Source: a virus
IMG/VR virus record: IMGVR_UViG_3300005095_000150
Span: 1-30,421 of that record
Length of the DNA: 30,421 bases
Strand: one strand, 5' to 3'
Positions within the stretch are counted from its first letter, which is position 1; every line of letters starts with the position of its first letter. A program made the position numbers and the translations under genes. Below, piece by piece: positions 1,423 through 30,421 of this stretch. A model generated the notes under the pieces. That model was not told the origin of the DNA, searched no databases, and saw only the letters and a program-made list of their open reading frames with translations.

Positions 1423-1569
1423 ATGGAGAAAGATAAAGAAAAAGCTAAAGCTAACGAAACCTCGCTGAAGTCCGAAGCTCCTCTTGAGTGGCTGGAGCCT
1501 TTGAAGCCCGGGGAGCAATTCGTCGGGGGAGGGCTTAAGAAATCTTCATCGGAGGCTGAAAATGAATAA
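1423..1569 (+). CDS. Small hypothetical ORF, 48 residues, overlapping the terminase start
   Basis: A short ORF starts at ATG 1423 after GAGGAG (about 1404-1411) and ends with TAA at 1567-1569, overlapping the terminase ATG at 1562 by 8 bases. The product begins MEKDKEKAKANE and is Lys/Glu-rich, with a Pro-Leu-Glu-Trp-Leu-Glu-Pro centre and no recognisable domain. It fills the whole gap between two packaging genes, and the stop-start overlap suggests translational coupling to the terminase. It could be a real tiny gene or an untranslated spacer that is open by chance. Confidence 0.5.
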   Translation: MEKDKEKAKANETSLKSEAPLEWLEPLKPGEQFVGGGLKKSSSEAENE

Positions 1570-4426
1570 CCCTCTAAAGCCGAAGCTCGAGCTTGTGCCT
1601 CATCCAAAAGCTCCGTTATTCGCTCGAGAAGATCGGATGGAGATTTTTCAGCAGATTCTCCGGGAGGTTACCTCAGAGAATCCTCAGCTTTCTAATAAGG
1701 AGGTTTTAGAGGTAATCCGTCAAGCGGGATATGTGAATCTTTGGTTTTTCCTTAAAGGCATCGCAAGCTTCGGAGGACCGTTTGAGCTTTTGAACGAGGA
1801 CTTACATATGGCAATGGCGAACTATCGGCAGACGTTGCTTTACCCCGGATGCCGCGGGGCGATGTTTATTCCCCGGAGTTGTTTTAAGTGTCGAGCTAAA
1901 GGTGAAGAAGTCTTATCAGTTAATGGGGTTGTAAAAGTTGAAAATATTAAAGTAGGAGATAAACTTTTAACAACTGACAGGTATGGAAAACCTAAAATTA
2001 CAATCGTCAAAGCTATTGGAAGAGAAAAGAGTAGAATATATAAGGTAAAACTTCAGTCCGGACATATAATGCGAGTAGGAAAAGGTCATAAGTTTAAAAC
2101 TCCTAAAGGGTTTGTTATTCCAGTAGAAGATTTAAAAGAAGGAGATTTGATTGGAGTAGCTTCAAAAGCTGGTTTTAAAGTTAAACCTTATAAGGACCTT
2201 GATTGGTTAATGGGGTTCATATATGGAGATGGAGGAGTTACAGGTGGAAGTATTCGTTTAACGATAGTAGATGAATCACTACTTGCTAAAGCTAAACGTG
2301 TCTGGAAAAATGGCTTATCTAAGAGAGGTCGGTATGGATGGGATTTATTAAAAGGTAAAGAATGGTTCTTGAAATCAGGAGGTATTATTGAAAAAGCTAT
2401 TCATAAAAGAATACCTCCAGAATATGAAGGATCATCTGGATTTCTTCAAGGTTTATTTGACGCTGACGGATCAGTTTCTAAAACGGGAAGAATATCATTT
2501 TGTACAGCCTCAAAAGGACTCGCTAATGATGTGCAACGTAATCTTTTATACTTCGGGGTTCATACGCGAATTACAGAAACTTCTACATATTCTGATCACG
2601 GTAAAGCTTTTTATGTAACTATTGAAACAGAAAAAGGGACTAAAGCTTTTCAGGAATTTATAGGCTTTTCATGTAAAAGTAAAAAGGAAAGATTGGAGAA
2701 AAGAAAACCTATTATAAATAGATCTTATGATATAATACCGTCTGAATGGGTAAGGCTTTTAAAAGGAGAAGTTAAATCGCAAGCTTGGAGAAAAGATAAA
2801 AAACCGAGGTTAGATAATTATTACAATTTAACTAAAGATAAATTTAACAATCTTAAATCTTTATTGAAAGAACATCGAAATATTGAGTTAATGAAAGCTA
2901 TAGAGAAAAGAGATTTTATATGGGAGAGGGTCGTTAGTATTAAAGAAGAAGGTGATGGAGAAATTTATCCTATTTTCGTAGACGGAAATCATACTTATAT
3001 GGATGCACATGGAGTTATCGACCATAATTCTACCATCGTAACCGAAGGTGCCACCGCATGGGAGCTTCTGCGGGATCCGGACTTACGTATAAGAATAACC
3101 GGTTCGACCTCTGACAAAGCCTTTGGATTTGTGCAGACAATAAAGGCGATTTTTGACTCGAATTCGTTGTTTGGGCTTCTGTATCCCGAGTATGTTCCAG
3201 AGCCGAATGCTGATCGTTGGACGAAGACGGAGATTGTACTGCCGAACCGGAGAAAGGCTCGAAGAGAAGCCTCGGTGGAGTACGGCGGAGTAGGTGGAGC
3301 TTCTGAAGGACATCATTACGATTTACATATTGTCGATGATATGATTGGTTTAGGGTCCCTTAACGCCAACCGAGAGTCCTCTGCAGAGATGATTCGGACG
3401 AGGAATTGGTTCTGGGGGTCGGAGAAAACGCTCTTGCAGAGTATCCGTAAAAGTAGAGTAATTGTAGTCGGAACTCGTTATGCTGTCGACGACGTATACG
3501 ACGATATCATCGGTCAAGCTCGGGAGGTTATTGGCGCGGAAATGCCGGACTTTGAACCTAATCCTAAAGGTCGTTGGACGATTTACTACCGGAAGGCGAT
3601 TGAGAATGGGAAAAGTATCTTTCCTGAGAGCTTCTCCATTGAAGACCTTGAAGAAATGGCGGATAACGATTACTGGACTTATGTAACGCAGTACCTGAAT
3701 GACCCTCAAGCATCTGGTCTTGCGGAGTTTAATGAATATGAAGCTAAAAAATGTTTCTTAGAAGCAGAGACGGTTGATGTTCCCGGAGGAGAGTCAGCGT
3801 TGCTTTGGAATATCCGCTACTATGGAACCGACGGTGAGAAGGTTATAAGCCTCGCGAACTGCGATGTCGTGATGGCAATTGACCCGGCAGCGTCGGAGAA
3901 GTCTTTGAGTGCTAAAACCTCGAGATCCGCGGTTGGAGTTCTTGCAACCGCTCCGGATGGAAAAAGGTTTTTAATTTCCCTGAATGTCGGCTTTGTAAAA
4001 GTAACAAAGGTTTTTGACTGGATGTTTGCAGCGATGCGGAAGTTTAAGGGGTATCTCCGGGGGACTTTCCTTGAAGCTCAAGGACCGTTTAAGATACTCG
4101 GACCGCTGCTGCAAGCTGAACAGCAACGCCGGAAGCAGACGTTGAATCTTCGGCCGACGGTTGCGGTGGGGGAAAAAACAGCGAGAATCCGGACGACGCT
4201 CCAGCCTGAGCTTGAACGGGGGAATTTCTATGTCGAAGAATCTATCTGGCCAGAGTTCTGGGAAGAGCAACGGGCCTTTCCGCAATCCCAACGGAAGGAT
4301 GTTTTAGATATGGTAACAATTGCCTTAAAAGCCGCTGTACGACCGTTGTCACAAGAGGAAGAGAGGAGAAAAAAATCCGCTGAACGAAAGCGACGTGCAG
4401 CGATAAGAGGAATAACAGGATATTAA
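1562..4426 (+). CDS. terL: Terminase large subunit (packaging ATPase/nuclease) with in-frame intein
   Basis: The protein is 954 residues, of which 110-489 are an intein, leaving a mature protein of 574 residues, normal for this family. It pumps DNA into the procapsid through the portal and cuts concatemers. The P-loop is PRSCFK (104-109) joined after splicing to ST (490-491), so the intein separates the catalytic Lys from Ser. Walker B is IVDD (Asp592-Asp593). The C-terminal RNase H-fold nuclease shows three acidic sites: the MAIDPA segment (near residue 780), FLEAQG (near 838) and KDVLDMVTIA (near 918). The start is chosen from GGAG at about 1551 and the 8-base overlap with the preceding ORF. 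The unspliced precursor should be inactive as an ATPase. Extein and intein differ visibly in composition; the intein is much richer in A and T. Confidence 0.95.
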   Translation: MNNPLKPKLELVPHPKAPLFAREDRMEIFQQILREVTSENPQLSNKEVLEVIRQAGYVNLWFFLKGIASFGGPFELLNEDLHMAMANYRQTLLYPGCRGAMFIPRSCFKCRAKGEEVLSVNGVVKVENIKVGDKLLTTDRYGKPKITIVKAIGREKSRIYKVKLQSGHIMRVGKGHKFKTPKGFVIPVEDLKEGDLIGVASKAGFKVKPYKDLDWLMGFIYGDGGVTGGSIRLTIVDESLLAKAKRVWKNGLSKRGRYGWDLLKGKEWFLKSGGIIEKAIHKRIPPEYEGSSGFLQGLFDADGSVSKTGRISFCTASKGLANDVQRNLLYFGVHTRITETSTYSDHGKAFYVTIETEKGTKAFQEFIGFSCKSKKERLEKRKPIINRSYDIIPSEWVRLLKGEVKSQAWRKDKKPRLDNYYNLTKDKFNNLKSLLKEHRNIELMKAIEKRDFIWERVVSIKEEGDGEIYPIFVDGNHTYMDAHGVIDHNSTIVTEGATAWELLRDPDLRIRITGSTSDKAFGFVQTIKAIFDSNSLFGLLYPEYVPEPNADRWTKTEIVLPNRRKARREASVEYGGVGGASEGHHYDLHIVDDMIGLGSLNANRESSAEMIRTRNWFWGSEKTLLQSIRKSRVIVVGTRYAVDDVYDDIIGQAREVIGAEMPDFEPNPKGRWTIYYRKAIENGKSIFPESFSIEDLEEMADNDYWTYVTQYLNDPQASGLAEFNEYEAKKCFLEAETVDVPGGESALLWNIRYYGTDGEKVISLANCDVVMAIDPAASEKSLSAKTSRSAVGVLATAPDGKRFLISLNVGFVKVTKVFDWMFAAMRKFKGYLRGTFLEAQGPFKILGPLLQAEQQRRKQTLNLRPTVAVGEKTARIRTTLQPELERGNFYVEESIWPEFWEEQRAFPQSQRKDVLDMVTIALKAAVRPLSQEEERRKKSAERKRRAAIRGITGY
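1889..3028 (+). mobile_element. Full-length intein with LAGLIDADG homing endonuclease, inserted in the TerL P-loop
   Basis: This is a 380-residue intein. It begins with Cys110 (CRAKGEEVLS, block A) and ends GVIDHN followed by Ser490, the standard His-Asn/Ser C-terminal junction. Block F is visible as GNHTYMDAHG. Block B is atypical: the usual Thr-x-x-His reads Gly-Lys-Gly-His. The inserted endonuclease has both LAGLIDADG helices: LMGFIYGDGG (216-225) and LQGLFDADGS (295-304). Established role: self-splicing, plus homing into intein-free alleles by cleaving the unoccupied site. A-rich codons such as AAA, TTA and ATA dominate, unlike the flanking terminase, which suggests recent acquisition. 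Both nuclease acidic residues are present, so homing may still be active. Confidence 0.93.
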
Positions 4427-4439
4427 AGGAGGTATAAGA

Positions 4440-6455
4440 ATGGCAATAGAGCAAAAAGGAACTTCCGCTGAAGTACCTGAACAGCCGGAGGACATTGTGG
4501 TAGAAGCCGACGATGGATTTGTTATTGAAGAATCGTTGGTTGACTCGGAGTCTATTTTAACCGAGGAGCAGGAGCAGGAGATTTTAGAGTACCTGAGATT
4601 TGAATTTGAAGATGTTGAGACAGGGACGAACCGGGATAAGTTCCTCCGGAAGGTCCGCAAATGGCGCCGTCAGCGTCAGGCAATGCCGGAGAAGGAAGAG
4701 AAAAATTACCCGTGGGAGAAAGCGTCTAATGTAACCGTACCATTGGCAATGACAAATGCAAATGGAAATTTTGCGACAATAAAGAATAACTTCTCACGCC
4801 GCAGACCTTTTTGGTCGGTGTTGACGGATATTCAAGAAAAGAAAAAACAAGCAGAGGCGTTGGAGAATTTGCTTGAGAAGTTGGTAGACAGCGCGAGGCA
4901 CATGAATCTTCGGAAAAAGAATAATGTTATTTTGTATGACACAGTTTCTCTTGGAACCGCGTTTGTTAAGATTCCATGGACGATTGAAGAATGGAATTTT
5001 AAACGCCGGGAAAATGGAGAACTAAAGACGGTCTCTAAAAAGGTAAAAAACACTCCCGATGTTATTCCGATTCGGATAGAGGATCTTTTAACTCGTGCCG
5101 AATGGGGAGATGATCTCCAGAGAGCTCCGTGGGTGGCTCATAAGATTTACCTCCGGAAACATGAGCTTTTACAGCGTCAGGCGAAGGGTATTTATGAAAA
5201 TGTGGATGTTATTCTTGAGGGTGAGACTGCGAAGTTAGATGAAGGTCGGGAAGAGTCATTGAAGAGGATTGGGATTAACTACTCGCAAGAGGGGCTTTCG
5301 GAATACACAATTTACGAGACTTACCTTTTCTGGGATGTTGATGGAGATGGGATTCCGGAGGATATTATTATCTGGCTCGAGCCGACGACTGGGACTTTTC
5401 TACGGGTGGAGTATAATGACCTCGGAGTCCGACCGATTGTGAGGATTCCGTATTTCCAGATCCCCGGAGAGCTCTACGCAATGGGCACTGGATGGATGGT
5501 TGAAGGCCTTCAGGATGAGATAGACACCCTGCATAATATGCGAATCGACGGAACCCACATAAGCATGCTTCAGATGTTCGTAAGCCGGAGAGGAAGCGGG
5601 ATAGGTCCCGATGAGGAATTTAGACCCTTGAAACATATTCAGGTGGATGATCCACAGGAGGATTTTATACCGGTGAAGTTTCCGGACATCGGATATGGAA
5701 CCTTGCAGGCAGAACTAATGGCAAAGGAATACGCAGACCGCGCAACAGGCTCTACAGATGCAATGATGGGATTTGAGAGTCGAGCCGCGGGAACACGGGC
5801 GACTTCCTCTGGAACAATGTTTCTTGCTCAGCAGGGGAGTAAGATTTTCGCAGCTATTTCGGAGAGTATTGAGGATGCTTACTCGGAGATTGGGCAGATT
5901 GTTGCCTTCCAGCTTATTCGGAATAAGGATCTTATTTTAGAGGATTTGCCGAATCTTGTTAAAGAAGAATATGTTGAGCCACTGAAGGAAGTTTTAAATA
6001 TGAATGTCGAGGATATTCCTACGACCTTTCAGTTCCGCGTACAGACAACGGATATTCAGAAAACCGAGGACGCGAGGAGGCAGAATATACTGACACTGTT
6101 CCAGCTTTATACTTCCGGAGGCGAGAAGCTCATTCAACTTGCTATGACGCTGTTTAATCAGCAAGCGCAAATCCCGCAGGAAGTCCGGGCAAGTATGACG
6201 AAGTTTTACATAGGCGGAACGAAGCTGCTCGACCAGATAATGGAGTTCTTCGGAGAAGATGATAGGCGAGATTTTCTGCCTTATATAAAAGACCTTGAGT
6301 TAATGATGGATGCGATTGAGAATATGAAAGACCAGCAGGTTTCGCAGGCGAGGAAGCAGATGGTCGTGCAGGAAGAACAAGCGAAGCTTCAGGGACCACA
6401 AGGTCCGCAGGGGCCCAACGGTCCACAAGGACCTCAGCCCGGGAGGAAGTTTTAA
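4440..6455 (+). CDS. Portal protein
   Basis: This 671-residue protein has its start fixed by AAAGGAGG eight bases upstream, 13 bases after the terminase stop. The N-terminus is acidic. Residues around 90-120 contain YPWEKASNVTVPLAMTNAN, the 'PW-x-A-S-N-x-x-x-P' signature of phage portal proteins, followed by a basic region. The centre includes DVDGDGIPEDIIIWLEP and EYADRATGSTDAMMGFESRA, typical of the stem/crown region of this family. It forms the dodecameric channel at the capsid vertex where terminase docks and the neck attaches. The last 25 residues carry a short collagen-like Gly-Pro-Gln repeat, unusual at a portal C-terminus and probably disordered or exposed. Confidence 0.92.
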   Translation: MAIEQKGTSAEVPEQPEDIVVEADDGFVIEESLVDSESILTEEQEQEILEYLRFEFEDVETGTNRDKFLRKVRKWRRQRQAMPEKEEKNYPWEKASNVTVPLAMTNANGNFATIKNNFSRRRPFWSVLTDIQEKKKQAEALENLLEKLVDSARHMNLRKKNNVILYDTVSLGTAFVKIPWTIEEWNFKRRENGELKTVSKKVKNTPDVIPIRIEDLLTRAEWGDDLQRAPWVAHKIYLRKHELLQRQAKGIYENVDVILEGETAKLDEGREESLKRIGINYSQEGLSEYTIYETYLFWDVDGDGIPEDIIIWLEPTTGTFLRVEYNDLGVRPIVRIPYFQIPGELYAMGTGWMVEGLQDEIDTLHNMRIDGTHISMLQMFVSRRGSGIGPDEEFRPLKHIQVDDPQEDFIPVKFPDIGYGTLQAELMAKEYADRATGSTDAMMGFESRAAGTRATSSGTMFLAQQGSKIFAAISESIEDAYSEIGQIVAFQLIRNKDLILEDLPNLVKEEYVEPLKEVLNMNVEDIPTTFQFRVQTTDIQKTEDARRQNILTLFQLYTSGGEKLIQLAMTLFNQQAQIPQEVRASMTKFYIGGTKLLDQIMEFFGEDDRRDFLPYIKDLELMMDAIENMKDQQVSQARKQMVVQEEQAKLQGPQGPQGPNGPQGPQPGRKF

Positions 6456-6716
6456 ATGGTAGACTCTTTAGAAATCGCAAGAATTGCAAAGAAGTTTAAT
6501 CTAAGCCCCGGAGAAGTAGAGGTAATTGCGGATTTAGATGCCCAGAAACTGAAGCTTTTAAAGAAATTTGCTTCCCGTTTAGAAGCCTCAGCTCGTGCGG
6601 AACTTGAACACTCACAGGACATGCAGAAGATATTCAAATCACAGGGAATTTTAAAAGCCTTTAGAAGGCTTTTTGGAGAAATAGAAAAAATAATGGAGGA
6701 ACTTAAGAATGGATGA
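6456..6716 (+). CDS. Small helical head-module protein, unknown
   Basis: This 86-residue protein has an ATG that directly follows the portal stop; GGGAGGAAG at the end of the portal gene provides the ribosome site. It is highly helical, charged and rich in Lys, Glu, Leu and Ala, with a Leu-rich heptad-like stretch (about 28-50) suggesting a coiled coil. It ends with TGA overlapping the next gene by 8 bases, so the three genes from portal to scaffold are translationally coupled. I do not recognise a family. A head-assembly chaperone or scaffold partner is plausible from position only. Confidence 0.75.
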   Translation: MVDSLEIARIAKKFNLSPGEVEVIADLDAQKLKLLKKFASRLEASARAELEHSQDMQKIFKSQGILKAFRRLFGEIEKIMEELKNG

Positions 6717-8917: not shown

Positions 8918-9826
8918 ATGATTACTAATACGAAGATTTTTGGAAATAGTTTAGACAAAACCATATCGAAGATTTTCTTCGACGATTATGCAGCACATCC
9001 GAGTGAGTTTGATCGGATAGCCCACATCGGAAACGCACCTGCTGGGCATGATTACACGGAAAGTGAGCTTTCTCCTCTGGGGGCGCTGTATGAAGTTCCC
9101 GAGGGAACTGGTGTTCAGTTTGATCTTCCGGCAGAGGGAAATAAGGTAACTCGGTATTACACAAAGTATGGACTTGGTTTCCAGATCACCGAGGAAATGA
9201 TGAAAGATGATCTGCACCAGCAGTTCAAACAGATGCCGAGGATGCTTGCGAAGTCTGCGGCTCAGAAACGCGAGACGGTTTTCTGGGATCTGTTTAACCG
9301 CGGGTTTACCTACCACACCGCATGGGATGGGAAGTATATTTTCGCGTCGGATCACACGACTTTGAAATCCGGAGATACAATCTCGAATACTGGAACCGCT
9401 GCGAGTCTTTCTGAGACTTCTCTTCAGGCAGCGTTTGAGTATTATGATAACCTCGTCGATGAAGCTGGGAATCCAATACTCATGCAGCCTAACATGCTGA
9501 TCGTTCCTACAGCTCTCCGCTACACCGCTGGGCAGCTGATGAAGAATATGATGAATATTGGATCTGCGAATCGAGATCTTAATACGGTTAACCCTGAGAA
9601 CGGAATGGTTAATCCTTATCAGCTGCATATCAGCCGGTACTTGACCTCTGATACCGCATGGTTCCTGCTTGCACCTGAGCATGATTTTAGGTTTCTGTGG
9701 AAAGAACAGCCGGTGGTTGACTCCTCGGATGATTTTCTCACGAATAACGCACTCTTCAAGGTAATGATGAGGTTTACTACCTTCGTCAACAGATACAAAG
9801 GTGCTTATGGGAATGTTGGTAGCTGA
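8918..9826 (+). CDS. Major capsid protein (HK97 fold, Mu gpT-like)
   Basis: 302 residues, about the size of Mu gpT. Features include an N-terminal helix (DKTISKIFFDDYAAHPSEFD), the segment YYTKYGLGFQITEEMMKDDL, FASDHTTLKSG and LMQPNMLIVPTALRYTAGQL, all in the order seen in Mu-type major heads. It forms the icosahedral shell with scaffold and portal. The start relies on coupling: the decoration gene stops at 8914 and only a weak GGGGG/AAGG lies upstream. It ends with TGA, followed 18 bases later by a strong terminator, which shows TGA acts as a real stop here. A long antisense ORF on the other strand is a shadow. Confidence 0.92.
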   Translation: MITNTKIFGNSLDKTISKIFFDDYAAHPSEFDRIAHIGNAPAGHDYTESELSPLGALYEVPEGTGVQFDLPAEGNKVTRYYTKYGLGFQITEEMMKDDLHQQFKQMPRMLAKSAAQKRETVFWDLFNRGFTYHTAWDGKYIFASDHTTLKSGDTISNTGTAASLSETSLQAAFEYYDNLVDEAGNPILMQPNMLIVPTALRYTAGQLMKNMMNIGSANRDLNTVNPENGMVNPYQLHISRYLTSDTAWFLLAPEHDFRFLWKEQPVVDSSDDFLTNNALFKVMMRFTTFVNRYKGAYGNVGS

Positions 9827-9843
9827 TGTAGTAATTGACAAAT

Positions 9844-9876
9844 ACCTCTGGAGCTATTGACGTTCCAGAGGTTTTT
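9844..9876 (+). terminator. Rho-independent terminator after the capsid gene
   Basis: A perfect 9-bp stem (ACCTCTGGA at 9844-9852 with TCCAGAGGT at 9864-9872) and an 11-base loop is followed by TTTTT. It should limit transcription from the abundant capsid message into downstream genes. Confidence 0.85.
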
Positions 9877-9895
9877 CTAAACGGAGGAACCTTAA

Positions 9896-10123
9896 ATGGC
9901 GAAAACAAACTTAGACACCCTACAGCTTGACGGGGATGCGTTGTACGATTCCAGCGGGAATAGGATTCTTGCAGGACAGCAGGCGTCAATCACAGATGCT
10001 ATAACTGCTCATGACATATCAGCAACCTTCACCGACACCGAGGTAGAAGCAGCGTTGGATGCTTTAGGAGTTAAGCTAAATGCTATCCTAACCGCCCTAA
10101 AAGCTCATGGGTTGATAGCGTAA
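9896..10123 (+). CDS. Small fibre-like virion protein
   Basis: 75 residues, with ribosome site CGGAGGAA at about 9881. The N-terminus (NLDTLQLDGDALYDSSGNRIL) looks like a short beta motif seen in phage head-fibre or fibre-base proteins. Residues about 35-72 (TFTDTEVEAALDALGVKLNAILTALKAHG) form a likely coiled-coil helix, as in trimeric fibre stems. It sits alone between two terminators, so its expression is probably separately tuned. Head fibre or minor decoration is the best guess; the family is not certain. Confidence 0.65.
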   Translation: MAKTNLDTLQLDGDALYDSSGNRILAGQQASITDAITAHDISATFTDTEVEAALDALGVKLNAILTALKAHGLIA

Positions 10124-10128
10124 AGGAC

Positions 10129-10154
10129 GGGATGCTGAAAAGCATCCCTTTTTT
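10129..10154 (+). terminator. Rho-independent terminator
   Basis: A perfect 8-bp stem (GGGATGCT with AGCATCCC) and GAAA tetraloop, followed by six T. It lies five bases after the stop at 10121-10123 and is the second terminator within about 300 bp. Confidence 0.92.
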
Positions 10155-10188
10155 AGTTGGAGATAATAGAGATAATGGAGGTTTTTAG

Positions 10189-10434
10189 ATGGCTTTCGGA
10201 CCGCAGTATGAAGAAGTAGATGATGGCGCTGGAGGAACGATGATACAGGCAAATTATACTTCAAAAGGTCCTGCGAGTTTTCGTAAATGGTACAATTGCC
10301 AGATTTGTGGTCTTTCATATCCGGAGGATGAGGTGGAGTTGGATGATTCCGGAGCAGCGTACTGTTATCGGTTTGACCATTATCTGGAGATAGATAAAAA
10401 ATCTGCGGCGGAGATAACTGGAGATTACTCTTAA
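10189..10434 (+). CDS. Small putative zinc-binding virion-module protein
   Basis: 81 residues with GGAGG nine bases upstream. It contains Cys37-x2-Cys40 (CQICG) and Cys59 followed by Asp63-His64, a rubredoxin/zinc-ribbon-like arrangement in which the fourth ligand would be Asp63 or His64 rather than Cys. Small proteins of this kind are common beside phage head-tail genes, where they may be structural. The N-terminus (GPQYEEVDDGAGGTMIQANY) is likely flexible. Zinc binding is inferred from the cysteine spacing only. Confidence 0.6.
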   Translation: MAFGPQYEEVDDGAGGTMIQANYTSKGPASFRKWYNCQICGLSYPEDEVELDDSGAAYCYRFDHYLEIDKKSAAEITGDYS

Positions 10435-10449
10435 GGAGGGAAGTAAAAA

Positions 10450-10725
10450 ATGGCAGTAGTTAATAATACAGGAAGAAGCTTGTACTATGCAGCAGCAGGG
10501 GATGAGCAGAAAGGAAGGCTTGCGGTTCAAGGGTTTGTTTGGACTGGGATTGCAACCACCGGAGATTTGCTTACGTTTGCGGATTCTTCTGGGGATACTG
10601 TGCTGGGACCCTTTACAGGTACAGCAGGGCAGGATCTGAATGTTATGTTTAAGAAGCCTATACATGTAGATGGTCTTGCGACATCGGTTCTTGGCTCTGG
10701 GACCGTTAACGTTTTCTTGGCGTAG
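10450..10725 (+). CDS. Small beta-rich virion protein, unknown
   Basis: 91 residues, preceded by AAGGAGGGAAG. The sequence alternates short hydrophobic strands and turns (GRLAVQGFVWTGIATTGDLL, TSVLGSGTVNVFLA), as in small beta-sandwich phage structural proteins. No catalytic motif is seen. It ends with TAG at 10723-10725, nine bases before the LamG gene. Its role is inferred from its neighbours: head decoration, head closure or a fibre accessory. Confidence 0.6.
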   Translation: MAVVNNTGRSLYYAAAGDEQKGRLAVQGFVWTGIATTGDLLTFADSSGDTVLGPFTGTAGQDLNVMFKKPIHVDGLATSVLGSGTVNVFLA

Positions 10726-10734
10726 GTTAAGAAA

Positions 10735-11292
10735 ATGGCGGTTAGTAATTTAGATATTTTAGAGTTAGCTCGATGGTTTAAATTTGGATCCGGAGGTTGG
10801 ACGGATTTAAGGGTAAATCCACTTACGTTGCCCGAGCTTGGAGCGAATCCGTCTGTGAGGAAGATAATCGCCAATGATGGATCTGCGACAACCGGATCTG
10901 CGTTTGAGTTTAATGGCTCTACAAGTAACGGAACAATTGCATACTATAGCGCACTGGATGTTTCGTCGATGTCGATTGCAATATGGATAAACCCGGATGA
11001 TGTTTCGCAGGAAGAACTCATGGACCGAAATACCGCTGGAGGGTTTGAGTTTTATATCTCGAATGGGAGGTTGATATTCTCCCCGAACGGAAGTGTAAGT
11101 GCTCAGACTTCGAGAAATACCTTAATTGCCGGAGAGACTCAGCTGGCGGTTGTTACAGTTGTGTTAGAGGGAACGAGTGTACGAGTTAAGCTGTACGTAA
11201 ATGGGACCCTACAGGAAGAGACAGTCCTCGGAGCTACCTTATCAACAAGCACCGATGGGCTTATAGTCGGCCAGTACAAAAGCGGTGGTTGA
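10735..11292 (+). CDS. LamG-domain fibre-type protein, N-terminal part ending at in-frame TGA
   Basis: 185 residues to TGA at 11290-11292. From about residue 55 the sequence follows the concanavalin A-like/laminin-G pattern: SAFEFNGS, MSIAIWINPDD, GGFEFYISNGRLIF, VRVKLYVNGTLQ and LIVGQYKSGG. It stops exactly before the last two strands of the domain. The missing strands (NFDGIMDDIQMFN, LTDAQITAMYNSG) continue in the same frame after the TGA, so this and the next entry are one gene interrupted by a single stop. LamG domains in phage virion proteins usually bind carbohydrate or trimerise. If the stop is real, the short form would have an incomplete jelly roll. The ribosome site (AGGTTAAG) is weak. 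Confidence 0.75.
   Translation: MAVSNLDILELARWFKFGSGGWTDLRVNPLTLPELGANPSVRKIIANDGSATTGSAFEFNGSTSNGTIAYYSALDVSSMSIAIWINPDDVSQEELMDRNTAGGFEFYISNGRLIFSPNGSVSAQTSRNTLIAGETQLAVVTVVLEGTSVRVKLYVNGTLQEETVLGATLSTSTDGLIVGQYKSGG
11290..11292 (+). other. In-frame TGA inside the LamG domain
   Basis: Codon 186 of a 413-codon frame running from 10735 to 11976. The next base is A (TGA-A), a context often associated with leaky UGA. The upstream and downstream parts are in the same frame with no residues lost, so a single base change (for example TGG to TGA) or deliberate readthrough explains it better than an indel. At least seven other genes here end in TGA, so TGA is normally a stop in this genome. Confidence 0.85.
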
Positions 11293-11307
11293 AACTTTGA
11301 CGGGATC

Positions 11308-11976
11308 ATGGACGATATTCAGATGTTTAATGTTGTTCTAACGGACGCGCAGATAACCGCAATGTACAACAGCGGAGCGGGGATAACCGGGCTTCCTATG
11401 GGGATTACGGAGTCTACGGACTTAGTTTTAAGATTTCAAGATTCGCTTACTAACTCTGCGACGCTCGGCTCTGGATACGACATAACCGGAACAGACATAA
11501 CCGTTGTTGATGGTCTTATAGGCGTAACCACCGGAAGTCTCGGGATTATGGCTTTAAGTTTTCCTCACGGAAAAACAAGCTCGATTTTCTTCACTGCACA
11601 GCTTCCGCATTCGTATGCGGAGGGAGAGGAAATTCGCTTGCACGTTCACTGGATGAGAAAGGATGCTGGAGATGGAGATATTCTTTGGGGACTTGAGTAT
11701 GTTTGGGTAAATGTCGATGGGATAGTAGGGAATACGACGATAGTTGAAAAAGCCCTTCCAGCCCCAACACAAGGAACTCATAGAGCAACTACCATTGCGG
11801 AGTTAAAAGGTGGAGAACATACAATCTCGAGTATCCTCGTCTGCTGGGTTTACCGAAAAGGTGACGACGCGAAGGACACCTTCGATGGAGAGGTTTTTAT
11901 GAGTGAACTTGACTTTCATTTTCCCCAAAACACCCCCGGATCAGTACAGGAATTTTCAAAATGGGAGGATGCTTAA
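11308..11976 (+). CDS. C-terminal part of the split LamG fibre-type protein
   Basis: 222 residues from the first ATG after the TGA, which lies in the same frame as the upstream part. No convincing ribosome site precedes this ATG (only GACGGG), so independent translation is doubtful and readthrough from 10735 would be the natural way to make it. Residues 1-22 (MDDIQMFNVVLTDAQITAMY) complete the upstream LamG domain. The rest is a second domain with LHVHWMRKDAGDGDILWGLE (111-130) and a beta-rich core, a module seen in other phage virion proteins. Its stop lies directly before the ATG of the head-tail adaptor gene, and GGGAGG at the end supplies that gene's ribosome site. Confidence 0.7.
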   Translation: MDDIQMFNVVLTDAQITAMYNSGAGITGLPMGITESTDLVLRFQDSLTNSATLGSGYDITGTDITVVDGLIGVTTGSLGIMALSFPHGKTSSIFFTAQLPHSYAEGEEIRLHVHWMRKDAGDGDILWGLEYVWVNVDGIVGNTTIVEKALPAPTQGTHRATTIAELKGGEHTISSILVCWVYRKGDDAKDTFDGEVFMSELDFHFPQNTPGSVQEFSKWEDA

Positions 11977-12912
11977 ATGACTCTTGAGGAAATAAGATTA
12001 GAAATATGGAAGGCTCTTGGAGAGCCAACGGACTTAGATCCTTCTACTGATACATCTTATAACGGTGGTCCTTATTTAACGTTTGTTGCAAACATGGCTC
12101 AGCGGAGGATCGCGAGTTATAAAACCGTGAAAGGTCGAATAATTCGACTGCCGAATCTTGTAGGAGATCTTTTCTTTAAAAGCAAGGTTATCAAAGGAAG
12201 CTTGGAAATCGGAGGTTCTACCTCTACTGTAGAGCTTCCAGTTGGAGATGTTGGGACTCAGGACGACCGTTACAATGGTTGGATCTTTGAGGTAAACGGA
12301 GAAACCCGGCTTATTGTTGACTACGACGGAGCTTCTAGGACAGCGACTCTAAGCGAAGATCTCTCAAGTGCACCGGAGATGGGTGACGAGTATTCGCTTT
12401 ATAAAAGTTTCTCGTTGCTTGTTCCTTCTTCACACGCATGGGCATCGGAGCATATTATTCTTCCGGAAGTCTCGGACCGCTGGAGGGCAGACGGTAATTT
12501 GATAGAGGTTTTGAAGATCGAGGACCTTGCGAATGAGCGGACTCTTGGACATGCGGCTCGAGGAGCAAGTTTTGTAACCTTAAGGACCTCCACCGGAGAT
12601 CCTACCGAGTGGTACCGCTTTGGAAATAAGATTTACTTCAACTATGCTCCTGAAGAAGAACAATGGTTCCGGATGGAATATTATCGGACTCCGACGGATA
12701 TGTCGGCTCCTACAGATGAACCGGAAATTCCTGAGCAATTCCACTATGGGGTTATTCTTTGGGGCATCGAATGGGGCTACCGAAGAGAAGGAGAATCTAA
12801 TGAGAAATATTCTACCAAACGCGACTTCCAAGGCTTCATGGAACGAACGGTGGAGAATCTTGACATCGCCGGAGAACGTAGCTTTGGTCAAGGCAAGCTG
12901 AAACTTAAGTAA
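11977..12912 (+). CDS. Head-tail adaptor / neck protein (gp11-like)
   Basis: 311 residues. The C-terminal half has the pattern of phage adaptor proteins of short-tailed phages: EWYRFGNKIYFNYAPEEEQW, then FRMEYYRTPTDMSAP, then PEIPEQFHYGVILWGIEWGY, a beta segment followed by paired helices. These proteins form the ring under the portal that links head and tail. The N-terminus (MTLEEIRLEIWKALGEPTDL) is helical, and an inserted beta-rich segment (about 70-145) is additional. In T7 the equivalent is gene 11 and in P22 gene 4. The assignment rests on pattern and position. Confidence 0.72.
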   Translation: MTLEEIRLEIWKALGEPTDLDPSTDTSYNGGPYLTFVANMAQRRIASYKTVKGRIIRLPNLVGDLFFKSKVIKGSLEIGGSTSTVELPVGDVGTQDDRYNGWIFEVNGETRLIVDYDGASRTATLSEDLSSAPEMGDEYSLYKSFSLLVPSSHAWASEHIILPEVSDRWRADGNLIEVLKIEDLANERTLGHAARGASFVTLRTSTGDPTEWYRFGNKIYFNYAPEEEQWFRMEYYRTPTDMSAPTDEPEIPEQFHYGVILWGIEWGYRREGESNEKYSTKRDFQGFMERTVENLDIAGERSFGQGKLKLK

Positions 12913-27526: not shown

Positions 27527-28858
27527 TTATTTATCCCAGATATAAAGTTCTTCTCCCTTTGTGGAGACTTGAGTTTTACGTTTTCCGCGTAGGCTCACTT
27601 CTATGAGGCCTTCTTGGTAGATGTGCTGCATTATTTTTAGTACCAGTTCCGCAGAGAAGCCGTAGGGAGACAAACGTTGAATTAACTGCCGTCGGGTTAT
27701 CTTCCCGCGGGATTTTATTATTTCTTTAGTTTTATTATAGCAGACGTTGTACGACGACATTCCAACTTCTTGGGTTATGCCTGAAGCTCCTTCATAGGTT
27801 ACATCAAGGATTGTCTCAGCTTCTTTTAGGATTTCTAAGGATATTTCCCGTCCTTCTTCGTAGCGCTGGGCTTTGAGTATCAACGCCAGCTTCCGAAGGT
27901 GTATGTCGTAGCGGGATTTTAGATCCACCTCAGAATCATGCCCAGTCATTAGAAGCTTGCGGTGGCGTTCATAGAATTTATTATAATATTCCTGAGCTTC
28001 ATCGGAGAAGTAAAATTCCCCTTGAGCGTTGTTTGCAATCCACGCCAGACGTTGAGCGAGATCCTTCCGTGTAGGACCTCCGATTACTTCTTTAGGTTCT
28101 GGGTACGAGCGAGTTGGTCGGGGAGAATGCACGAGTATCAATCTCGAAAGAAACCCACCTCCCATTGCTTCAGCAGGGATAGATTCGTTGATGCCTTTTA
28201 TTGTTGTGGCTCCGATTAAGGTAAAGAAGATGTCTCGAAATTCTACATGCCCACGTCCTACAGTATCTCGAGAGTCAATATCTTTACAATCGTAAAGATC
28301 CACAAGGGTGTTTATAAGCCCTGTGTTGTATTTTTGTTTTCCGAGGAACGTCGCAAGCTCTGCGACAACAACCGAGACCTCGGATCCTTTAGATGCGAAA
28401 TAGTTTTTTCCTTCATGCTTTATGACAACATTTTCCTTTGGAACCAAAGCTACCTCTAAGGCTTCCGGGGTGACCTTTGTCCGGAGAAGGTTCACTTCCT
28501 TCGCAAACTGCACCCGTGGGTCTTTGTAAAACTTTGGGAAATCTATCAGTACCTTTTCTCCGAATTGTCGTACCGCGGTAGACTTTGCACAGATTCTTGG
28601 AGGAGCTACGAGGACGATGAAGAAATTTGGATAAAGCGGATCTGGGTACCATTTAAAATACGCGTCCCTTTTCAACGCCGACGACAATGCCCAGACGCCA
28701 GACCAGAAACTTAAAATCGTCGGAGTCTCTATCCCACGAGTCGCAAGTACAAAGTCTGTTAAAAATCCCGGCTTCGGTAAATATTTATCGAACGGTTCAT
28801 CAACCCAGAATTTCTCTTTAACATCCTCTTCTTTAAATGCCGTCGGGGGTTCAAGCAT
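27527..28858 (-). CDS. DUF3987-like P-loop ATPase/replicative helicase
   Basis: 443 residues from ATG at 28858. This start has AAGGAGG nine bases upstream, whereas the ATG nine bases earlier (28867) directly abuts the ribosome site. The P-loop is APPRICAKST (85-94, Lys92), atypical in having Ala where Gly is usual. Walker B is VSVVVAELATFLG with Glu168. TLIGATT (213-219) resembles a sensor strand, and GGGFLSR (233-239) carries a possible Arg finger. This pattern belongs to DUF3987-type phage helicase/primase-associated ATPases. The C-terminus holds a winged-helix-like region (KITRRQLIQRLSPYGFSAEL). It is coupled to the upstream gene (8-base overlap) and lies next to the DNA polymerase, so replication fork function is likely. 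Confidence 0.78.
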   Translation of the reverse strand: MLEPPTAFKEEDVKEKFWVDEPFDKYLPKPGFLTDFVLATRGIETPTILSFWSGVWALSSALKRDAYFKWYPDPLYPNFFIVLVAPPRICAKSTAVRQFGEKVLIDFPKFYKDPRVQFAKEVNLLRTKVTPEALEVALVPKENVVIKHEGKNYFASKGSEVSVVVAELATFLGKQKYNTGLINTLVDLYDCKDIDSRDTVGRGHVEFRDIFFTLIGATTIKGINESIPAEAMGGGFLSRLILVHSPRPTRSYPEPKEVIGGPTRKDLAQRLAWIANNAQGEFYFSDEAQEYYNKFYERHRKLLMTGHDSEVDLKSRYDIHLRKLALILKAQRYEEGREISLEILKEAETILDVTYEGASGITQEVGMSSYNVCYNKTKEIIKSRGKITRRQLIQRLSPYGFSAELVLKIMQHIYQEGLIEVSLRGKRKTQVSTKGEELYIWDK

Positions 28859-29117
28859 CTTCAACATCCTCCTTGATGGTTGATATTATAAGGTCTTTTT
28901 GGTCCTCTGTCAAATACTCTGTAAGATCTATAAAGCTTCTGTTTGAAGTAAGGTACCCAACCGCGTATTCTATATCCGCAGACTCTGGAGGTTCTTCTCG
29001 AGATCCTCGAGCTCCGGGGATGTAGGTGTAAAAAACCTCTGGCTCTAGCGTTAGCTCAATGCTGAAACTCCCGCTCAACTGATGATCCATCTTTCTTATA
29101 GGTGATTTTCTTCCCAT
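28851..29117 (-). CDS. Small conserved-type phage replication-module protein, unknown
   Basis: 88 residues. ATG 29117 is preferred because AGAGGAG precedes it with suitable spacing; an internal ATG at 29090 has no such site. The middle segment (LTLEPEVFYTYIPGARGSRE EPPESADIEYA, split by the acidic run) resembles small phage proteins with a 'Tyr-x-Pro-Gly ... Pro-Glu ... Glu-Tyr' pattern found near replication genes. I have no function for it. It overlaps the polymerase stop by 62 bases and the helicase start by 8, so it is translated within the replication operon. It ends with TGA. Confidence 0.65.
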   Translation of the reverse strand: MGRKSPIRKMDHQLSGSFSIELTLEPEVFYTYIPGARGSREEPPESADIEYAVGYLTSNRSFIDLTEYLTEDQKDLIISTIKEDVEDA

Positions 29118-30421
29118 TTATTTTAATCTCCTCTAATTTTCCCCAATTAGGGCCTATTTCTATATCAACCGGAAAGCTTACTTGCTTTCCATAGAAGTCC
29201 AACGGACGTTCCATTTCTTGTTTCATTAAGAGTATAAGTTCCAAGAGTTCTTCATAGGGGACTTCGTAAATTAGCTGATCGTGTACTTGAAGAACAAGCT
29301 TGGAACTTAAGCCTCGAGATTCTATCCCAGAATCTAAACGAATCAACGCTCGGTTAATTACCCCTGCGGCTCCTCCTTGAATGGGAGTGTTCAATGCTTG
29401 TTTTTCTATATCATACGAATCCCCCATTAAGGTTCTTACGCGACCTAAGAAAGTCCGAGATTTTCGTTCTTTCCGCGCAATTTCCTTTACCTTCTCCTGC
29501 CATTGATGGAGGACGTTATATTTTTCAAAATACGACTTCTCAGCTTCAACAAATTGCTTAAATGTCAAACGAAGTTCCGGTGCTTCAAGGGTTACTTTTT
29601 CGTAAATTGTCCGTTGCCCTCCGCCGTATTGGATTCTTCCAAACTGGAAGATCTTTGCTCCTCGTCGGGCAGGATTCCACATGGGATTCTCGGACGTTAT
29701 CTTAAAAAGCGCCTTCGTATTTTCATCATGCTGGTTTATCTTTCCTTCAATAACCGGAACAAGCTCCGGTTCTCCGGTCTCATACGCAAGCACAAAGACC
29801 TCCAGATTCCGGTAATCTCCAGAAACTAAAATCTTCCCAGGTCCTGCGATGAACATTTCCCGAACGTCCTTTAGCTTTTTAGGCACCTGTTGAAGATTCG
29901 GTGAGTTCATTGAATTATGTAGAGCTACTTCGTTACCTATAAAGCAGTGAGTATTTTCAACCTCCAAATCCCAAAGCTGTTCTTCTGGGCCTTCTTCAAT
30001 AGAGATTATATAGTGATTTCTTCTCAAGCGATTCCGATATTTGCGTAAAGTTTCAGGTTTTAACTTCTCACCTTTTTTACCTATTCCAGTTTCAACAGTT
30101 TTTTTAAGTTGTTCTTCAGTATAAGCGTGTTCTTTTTGATGGATACCTATAGTTCCACAAAACTTTAGGTTCTCTGGATAATTGTTTTGTTTATTTTCAT
30201 CTATATGGTGAATGATAGATCTTGAGTTTAATCTTTTTCCAGAGTTAAAAATTTCTCTATAAATCCATCTATGCTCAGAGACTCTTCCTCCTCCTTTTGA
30301 TCCTGTTCCTCTATTGCGTGAGTGGGGGAAAAAGTAACTATAACCATCCTCATTAAAGCCTCTTTTAGGCATACATAAAAGGCGTTCTCCGATTTTTAAA
30401 TCCTTTGCGTGTTTCCATATT
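29056..30421 (-). CDS. polA: Family A DNA polymerase with intein, 5' part outside window
   Basis: The reading frame is open to the right edge, so the gene starts beyond the window. After an intein (to 29914), the extein begins SMNSPNLQQVP, the PolA motif 1 (family consensus R-L-S-S-x-x-P-N-L-Q-x-I-P). Motif A is GDYRNLEVFVLA (Asp codon at 29815-29817). Motif B is RRGAKIFQFGRIQYGGG with one residue more than the usual F-G-x-x-Y-G. Motif C is VHDQL (Asp codon 29278-29280), where the usual second acid Glu is Gln. The enzyme would replicate phage DNA together with the helicase. The 3'-5' exonuclease region, if present, lies outside. It ends with TGA at 29056-29058. Confidence 0.92.
   Translation of the reverse strand, partial: IWKHAKDLKIGERLLCMPKRGFNEDGYSYFFPHSRNRGTGSKGGGRVSEHRWIYREIFNSGKRLNSRSIIHHIDENKQNNYPENLKFCGTIGIHQKEHAYTEEQLKKTVETGIGKKGEKLKPETLRKYRNRLRRNHYIISIEEGPEEQLWDLEVENTHCFIGNEVALHNSMNSPNLQQVPKKLKDVREMFIAGPGKILVSGDYRNLEVFVLAYETGEPELVPVIEGKINQHDENTKALFKITSENPMWNPARRGAKIFQFGRIQYGGGQRTIYEKVTLEAPELRLTFKQFVEAEKSYFEKYNVLHQWQEKVKEIARKERKSRTFLGRVRTLMGDSYDIEKQALNTPIQGGAAGVINRALIRLDSGIESRGLSSKLVLQVHDQLIYEVPYEELLELILLMKQEMERPLDFYGKQVSFPVDIEIGPNWGKLEEIKINGKKITYKKDGSSVEREFQH
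29914..30421 (-). mobile_element. Partial intein with HNH homing endonuclease in the DNA polymerase gene
   Basis: The C-terminal part of an intein ends GNEVALHN followed by Ser (+1 residue) at 29911-29913. Block F/G residues are visible as ENTHCFIGNEVALHN. An HNH nuclease is indicated by IIHHIDENKQNNYPENLKF, with further His at GIHQKEHA. The N-terminal splicing half (block A Cys) lies beyond the window edge, but WKHAKDLKIGERLLCMPKRG just before it resembles the end of block B. The insertion is within polymerase motif 1, close to the catalytic core. The composition is AT-rich relative to the polymerase extein, suggesting separate acquisition. It belongs to a different endonuclease class from the TerL intein. 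Confidence 0.9.

Follow-up and report, generated by a model that had tools for sequence, protein, structure and literature searches.

The fibre-type gene and its genomic setting

The window analysed here is the whole stretch of viral DNA, 30,421 nucleotides in length. It carries a fibre-type gene with an in-frame TGA, and the following features were assigned to this region.

10450–10725, plus strand: conserved upstream neighbour (46–49% identity to the relatives L002, L003 and L007)
10735–11976, plus strand: fibre-type gene, 413 codons plus stop with one TGA inside, matched along most of the gene by L010 (47%) and L020 (48%)
10798–10818, plus strand: WTDLRVN motif, residues 22–28, which in relatives forms the front edge of the fibre module, assigned by its motif score against shuffles
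10915–11355, plus strand: LamG domain (PF13385), residues 61–207, split at residue 186 by the TGA (45.9 bits for the pre-stop part, 67.9 bits with the TGA passed)
11290–11292, plus strand: in-frame TGA, codon 186, seen in the translation (TGG in L010, CGT in L020)
11308–11310, plus strand: ATG past the TGA, inside the LamG domain and without a ribosome site (-2.3 kcal/mol, weakest among 26 starts)
11530–11961, plus strand: C-terminal fibre module, residues 266–409 (AQLPHSY...HVHW...DFHF), common to otherwise unlike phage proteins
11977–12912, plus strand: conserved downstream neighbour with a weak match to tail/virion structural PHROGs (67% identity to L002, 60% to L003, 47% to L007)

The fibre-type gene occupies a variable site (10726–11976 in the window) that is flanked by two conserved virion genes. 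At the same site L002 harbors an unrelated gene (10147–10908), L003 no gene (9762–9771) and L007 several other genes (9482–12904). Translation confirmed the initial observation of the sequence-only reading that the frame is continuous except for a single TGA, the sole internal stop, which is preceded by YKSGG and followed by NFDGIMDDI. As written, this copy encodes a 185-residue product. The 227 codons past the TGA reached a codon-usage score of 0.066 compared to 0.071 ahead of it, which is the level of real genes, whereas the two alternative frames past the TGA scored -0.046 and 0.034 and contained 17 and 10 stops. Moreover, identity to the homologue L010 was 49% ahead of the TGA and 46% past it, indicating that the frame beyond the stop has not decayed. 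By alignment, the match to L010 exceeds chance on both sides of the TGA.

By its capsid (gene at 8918–9826; 45% identity) and portal (gene at 4440–6455; 37% identity), the closest named relative of the virus is Caudoviricetes sp. vir526, which is assigned to Methanomicrobiales. The virus may thus infect a methanogen. Neither the strong GGAGG ribosome sites nor the presence of a family A DNA polymerase settles the host. The virus seems to carry two inteins. The gene at 1562–4426, directly ahead of the portal gene, probably encodes the large terminase subunit and contains an intein at approximately 1889–3028 with a LAGLIDADG domain (PF14890, PF14528). The family A DNA polymerase gene (29056–30420, minus strand) is interrupted by an intein remnant at approximately 29914–30420, which is truncated at the contig end and possibly contains an HNH endonuclease; the matches to PF14890 and PF13392 were below the Pfam cut-offs.

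The LamG domain and the surrounding fibre module

Comparison with Pfam showed that the cut-off of PF13385 (Laminin_G_3; 27.6 bits) is exceeded both by the part before the stop (residues 61–181, profile positions 2–124 of 151, 45.9 bits) and by the frame with the TGA passed (residues 61–207, profile positions 2–150, 67.9 bits). Because the match extends on reading through, with a gain of 22 bits, the LamG domain spans the TGA codon without gap or frameshift, in agreement with the earlier statement that the strand pattern runs on across the stop with nothing missing. The TGA precedes the final LamG strand, and the pre-stop product lacks profile positions 125–150, the last sixth of the domain. 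In a predicted structure of low overall confidence (mean pLDDT 57), a strand (residues 192–198) and a helix (204–212) follow the TGA, and confidence was low at residues 179–194. Fold searches returned generic jelly-roll matches alone, with low TM-scores, and no function was drawn from them. The significant Pfam match and the jelly-roll matches resemble those of LamG/concanavalin-A-like (PF13385) domains in phage tail proteins. In contrast to these, the LamG domain described here is inserted within another fibre module.

This C-terminal module had no match in Pfam or PHROG. It comprises a DDLR motif, AQLPHSY, HVHW and DFHF and was found in many unrelated phage proteins (L011, L012, L019, L021–L024, L026–L028 and L030–L032), at times as a short stand-alone gene of 184–209 residues (L023, L028). 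In all nine module proteins without LamG, a [WYF]DD[LMF] motif is located 42–55 residues N-terminal of AQLPH. The counterpart in the window, WTDLRVN, lies ahead of the LamG domain, and its score was equalled by only 3 of 1000 shuffles. The stand-alone short proteins start with their own DDLR motif. Furthermore, L010 and the LamG-less protein L024 share two collinear segments (residues 25–101/282–357, E 1e-15; 329–464/364–501, E 3e-30); the stretch between them measures 227 residues in L010 and 6 in L024. This arrangement indicates that LamG is an insert within the fibre module and that both halves of the module belong to one chain. Judged from these alignments, the TGA falls within the LamG insert, which is itself nested in a fibre module whose main part comes after the stop. 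Since LamG lies inside the module, the TGA-terminated product would comprise only an incomplete LamG domain and the front edge of the module.

The codon at the TGA site and the use of TGA in the window

Homologues were retrieved first with the C-terminal part as query and subsequently with degenerate patterns spanning the TGA site, leaving out the window's own record and very near records. Two full-length homologues on other IMG/VR contigs were obtained, L010:3113–4519 (468 residues, 47% identity) and L020:1740–3602 (620 residues, 48% identity). Both are uninterrupted and match the fibre-type gene across approximately 390 residues. At the TGA site L010 has TGG (Trp), one transition apart from TGA, and L020 has CGT (Arg). 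Remoter LamG matches with an aligned residue displayed Tyr, Thr, Phe, Leu or Val. None of the LamG relatives with a residue aligned there (W, R, Y, T, F, L, V) carries a stop. The homologue alignment suggested by the sequence-only reading thus gave sense codons, and no homologue ends at this position. In these alignments, residue 186 is a variable position, yet it is a sense codon in every aligned relative.

The 30 tabulated genes of the window end with TAA (20), TGA (7) or TAG (3). Among their 9689 codons are 129 TGG; TAA and TAG do not occur within the genes, and TGA does so only once. In this window, TGA serves as a normal stop codon. The capsid gene stops with TGA where the checked relatives have TAA or TAG. 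TGA followed by A also terminates two ordinary genes, at 6714–6716 and, on the minus strand, in 28851–29117. No tRNA gene was detected in the 30,421-nt window, which is to be read with the incompleteness of its virus record in mind, and no tRNA with a UCA anticodon was found in the relatives' loci searched, including a whole 48-kb contig with a tRNA-Ile as its sole tRNA. The search for a suppressor tRNA proposed earlier was therefore negative. Likewise, no Rfam family matched anywhere in the window, and RNA structure downstream of the TGA was not above that of shuffles (z -0.8 to 0.4). A diversity-generating or phase-variable element was rejected as well: the window contains no template-like repeat for this region, and inverted repeats are absent from the gene.

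Origin of the TGA and alternative readings

Taken together, the TGA is very probably a nonsense change of one base in a fibre gene that is otherwise normal and encodes a single polypeptide, either natural and recent or due to a base or consensus error in the contig. In the relatives, the protein consists of an N-terminal part followed by a C-terminal fibre module into which the lectin-like LamG domain is inserted. One base change would have created the TGA and left a 185-residue product without the last LamG strand and the C-terminal module, and this product is probably non-functional. If the change is natural, it would be a recent mutation, the frame past the TGA being still undecayed; if not, the single metagenome contig would contain a wrong base or consensus call. 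From this state of the gene, we infer a recent origin or an error. The lack of any further internal stop in the 30 tabulated genes points to good base quality, which is slightly against an error, and we lean slightly towards a natural change. The gene resembles nonsense-interrupted, pseudogene-like tail-fibre genes of phages, or metagenome base errors: it has one internal stop, a frame intact on both sides, uninterrupted homologues and a codon one step away from that of a homologue. Sense codons in the homologues and the disruption of a domain by the stop support the suggestion of the sequence-only reading that a recent nonsense mutation or an assembly error is involved. If the TGA is natural, some full-length protein may still be produced, because UGA-A is misread in E. 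coli (PMC5289835) and Trp is present in L010; such low-level misreading by tRNA-Trp would probably represent ordinary leakiness and not regulation. One point against a nonsense change is that a site read through by tRNA-Trp would likewise show a UGA-A context and Trp in a homologue such as L010.

Programmed leaky termination, in which misreading of UGA-A by tRNA-Trp at a few percent would yield a minor 413-residue and a major 185-residue fibre, is unlikely. In E. coli, UGA followed by A is especially prone to misreading by tRNA-Trp (PMC5289835), L010 has Trp at the site and the frame beyond the TGA is intact. The leaky context claimed earlier is thus correct for E. coli, but it is permissive and does not constitute evidence for readthrough. 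Two ordinary genes of the window terminate at TGA-A as well. Moreover, the E. coli rule is bacterial and need not hold here, because vir526, to which capsid and portal are most similar among named phages, has a methanogenic archaeon as its assigned host. A readthrough site would be expected to have a stop conserved in homologues, a complete product before the stop and a leaky context or structure. Instead, homologues have TGG, CGT or other sense codons, and the stop lies inside LamG and the nested module, so that the short product would be disrupted. The TGA-A context is present and shared with the two ordinary stops, and downstream structure does not exceed that of shuffles.

The proposed parallel was the coat protein and its A1 extension in Qbeta, where UGA is read as Trp approximately once in 15 times (PMC8067240). 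The two cases share a UGA, a virion-type protein and approximately 200 open codons after the stop. In Qbeta, however, the coat protein is already complete before the stop, and the part beyond it forms a separate domain (PMC8067240), whereas here the stop cuts the LamG domain and homologues lack it. Regulated readthrough as in Qbeta is therefore unsupported: the homologues have sense codons, LamG is broken, and neither a suppressor tRNA, a downstream structure nor a second case was found in the window. We likewise regard it as improbable that this head-tail virus, whose host may be a methanogenic archaeon, maintains a leaky stop such that a few fibres would receive the C-terminal part via Trp insertion at UGA-A.

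Synthesis of two polypeptides is highly unlikely. Translation would stop at 11292 and restart at the ATG at 11308, 15 bases beyond the TGA, and the parts would assemble as a split LamG and fibre. The C-terminal module does exist as a protein of its own in other phages (L023 and L028). However, the Shine-Dalgarno pairing of this ATG is the weakest of 26 plus-strand starts, compared to -7 to -13.5 kcal/mol for most genes of the window, which bears out the earlier remark on its poor ribosome site. In addition, it starts inside LamG and not at a module boundary, and the DDLR motif that opens the stand-alone short forms is located ahead of LamG here. At 10735, the start of the fibre gene itself has a weak ribosome site too, compared to its neighbours (-4.4 kcal/mol; ribosome region 10713–10734).

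A genetic code with TGA as Trp, or a viral suppressor tRNA, would fit the alignment of the TGA with Trp in L010 but is largely refuted already and carries very little weight. The code change was rejected because 129 TGG stand against one TGA within genes and seven genes, including the capsid gene, end with TGA; a suppressor is opposed by the absence of tRNA genes from the window and the single tRNA-Ile of the 48-kb relative. Phages with reassigned stop codons, for example those using code 15, also have a stop codon within a gene, and reassigned codons occur in many of their genes (PMC11210395). In contrast, the window has a single case among 9689 codons, and its genes continue to use TGA as a stop. 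Selenocysteine insertion, to which an in-frame UGA within an intact frame might point, is scarcely credible and was rejected, since a SECIS-like element is absent (no Rfam match in the window, no stable hairpin after the codon) and no homologue has Cys at the site.

A true readthrough site would represent an uncommon instance of recoding among tailed DNA viruses. Most simply, the fibre gene is broken or mis-assembled and is useful mainly as a caution. A side result is the LamG domain itself, which is inserted at a variable site into a fibre module widely shared among phages.
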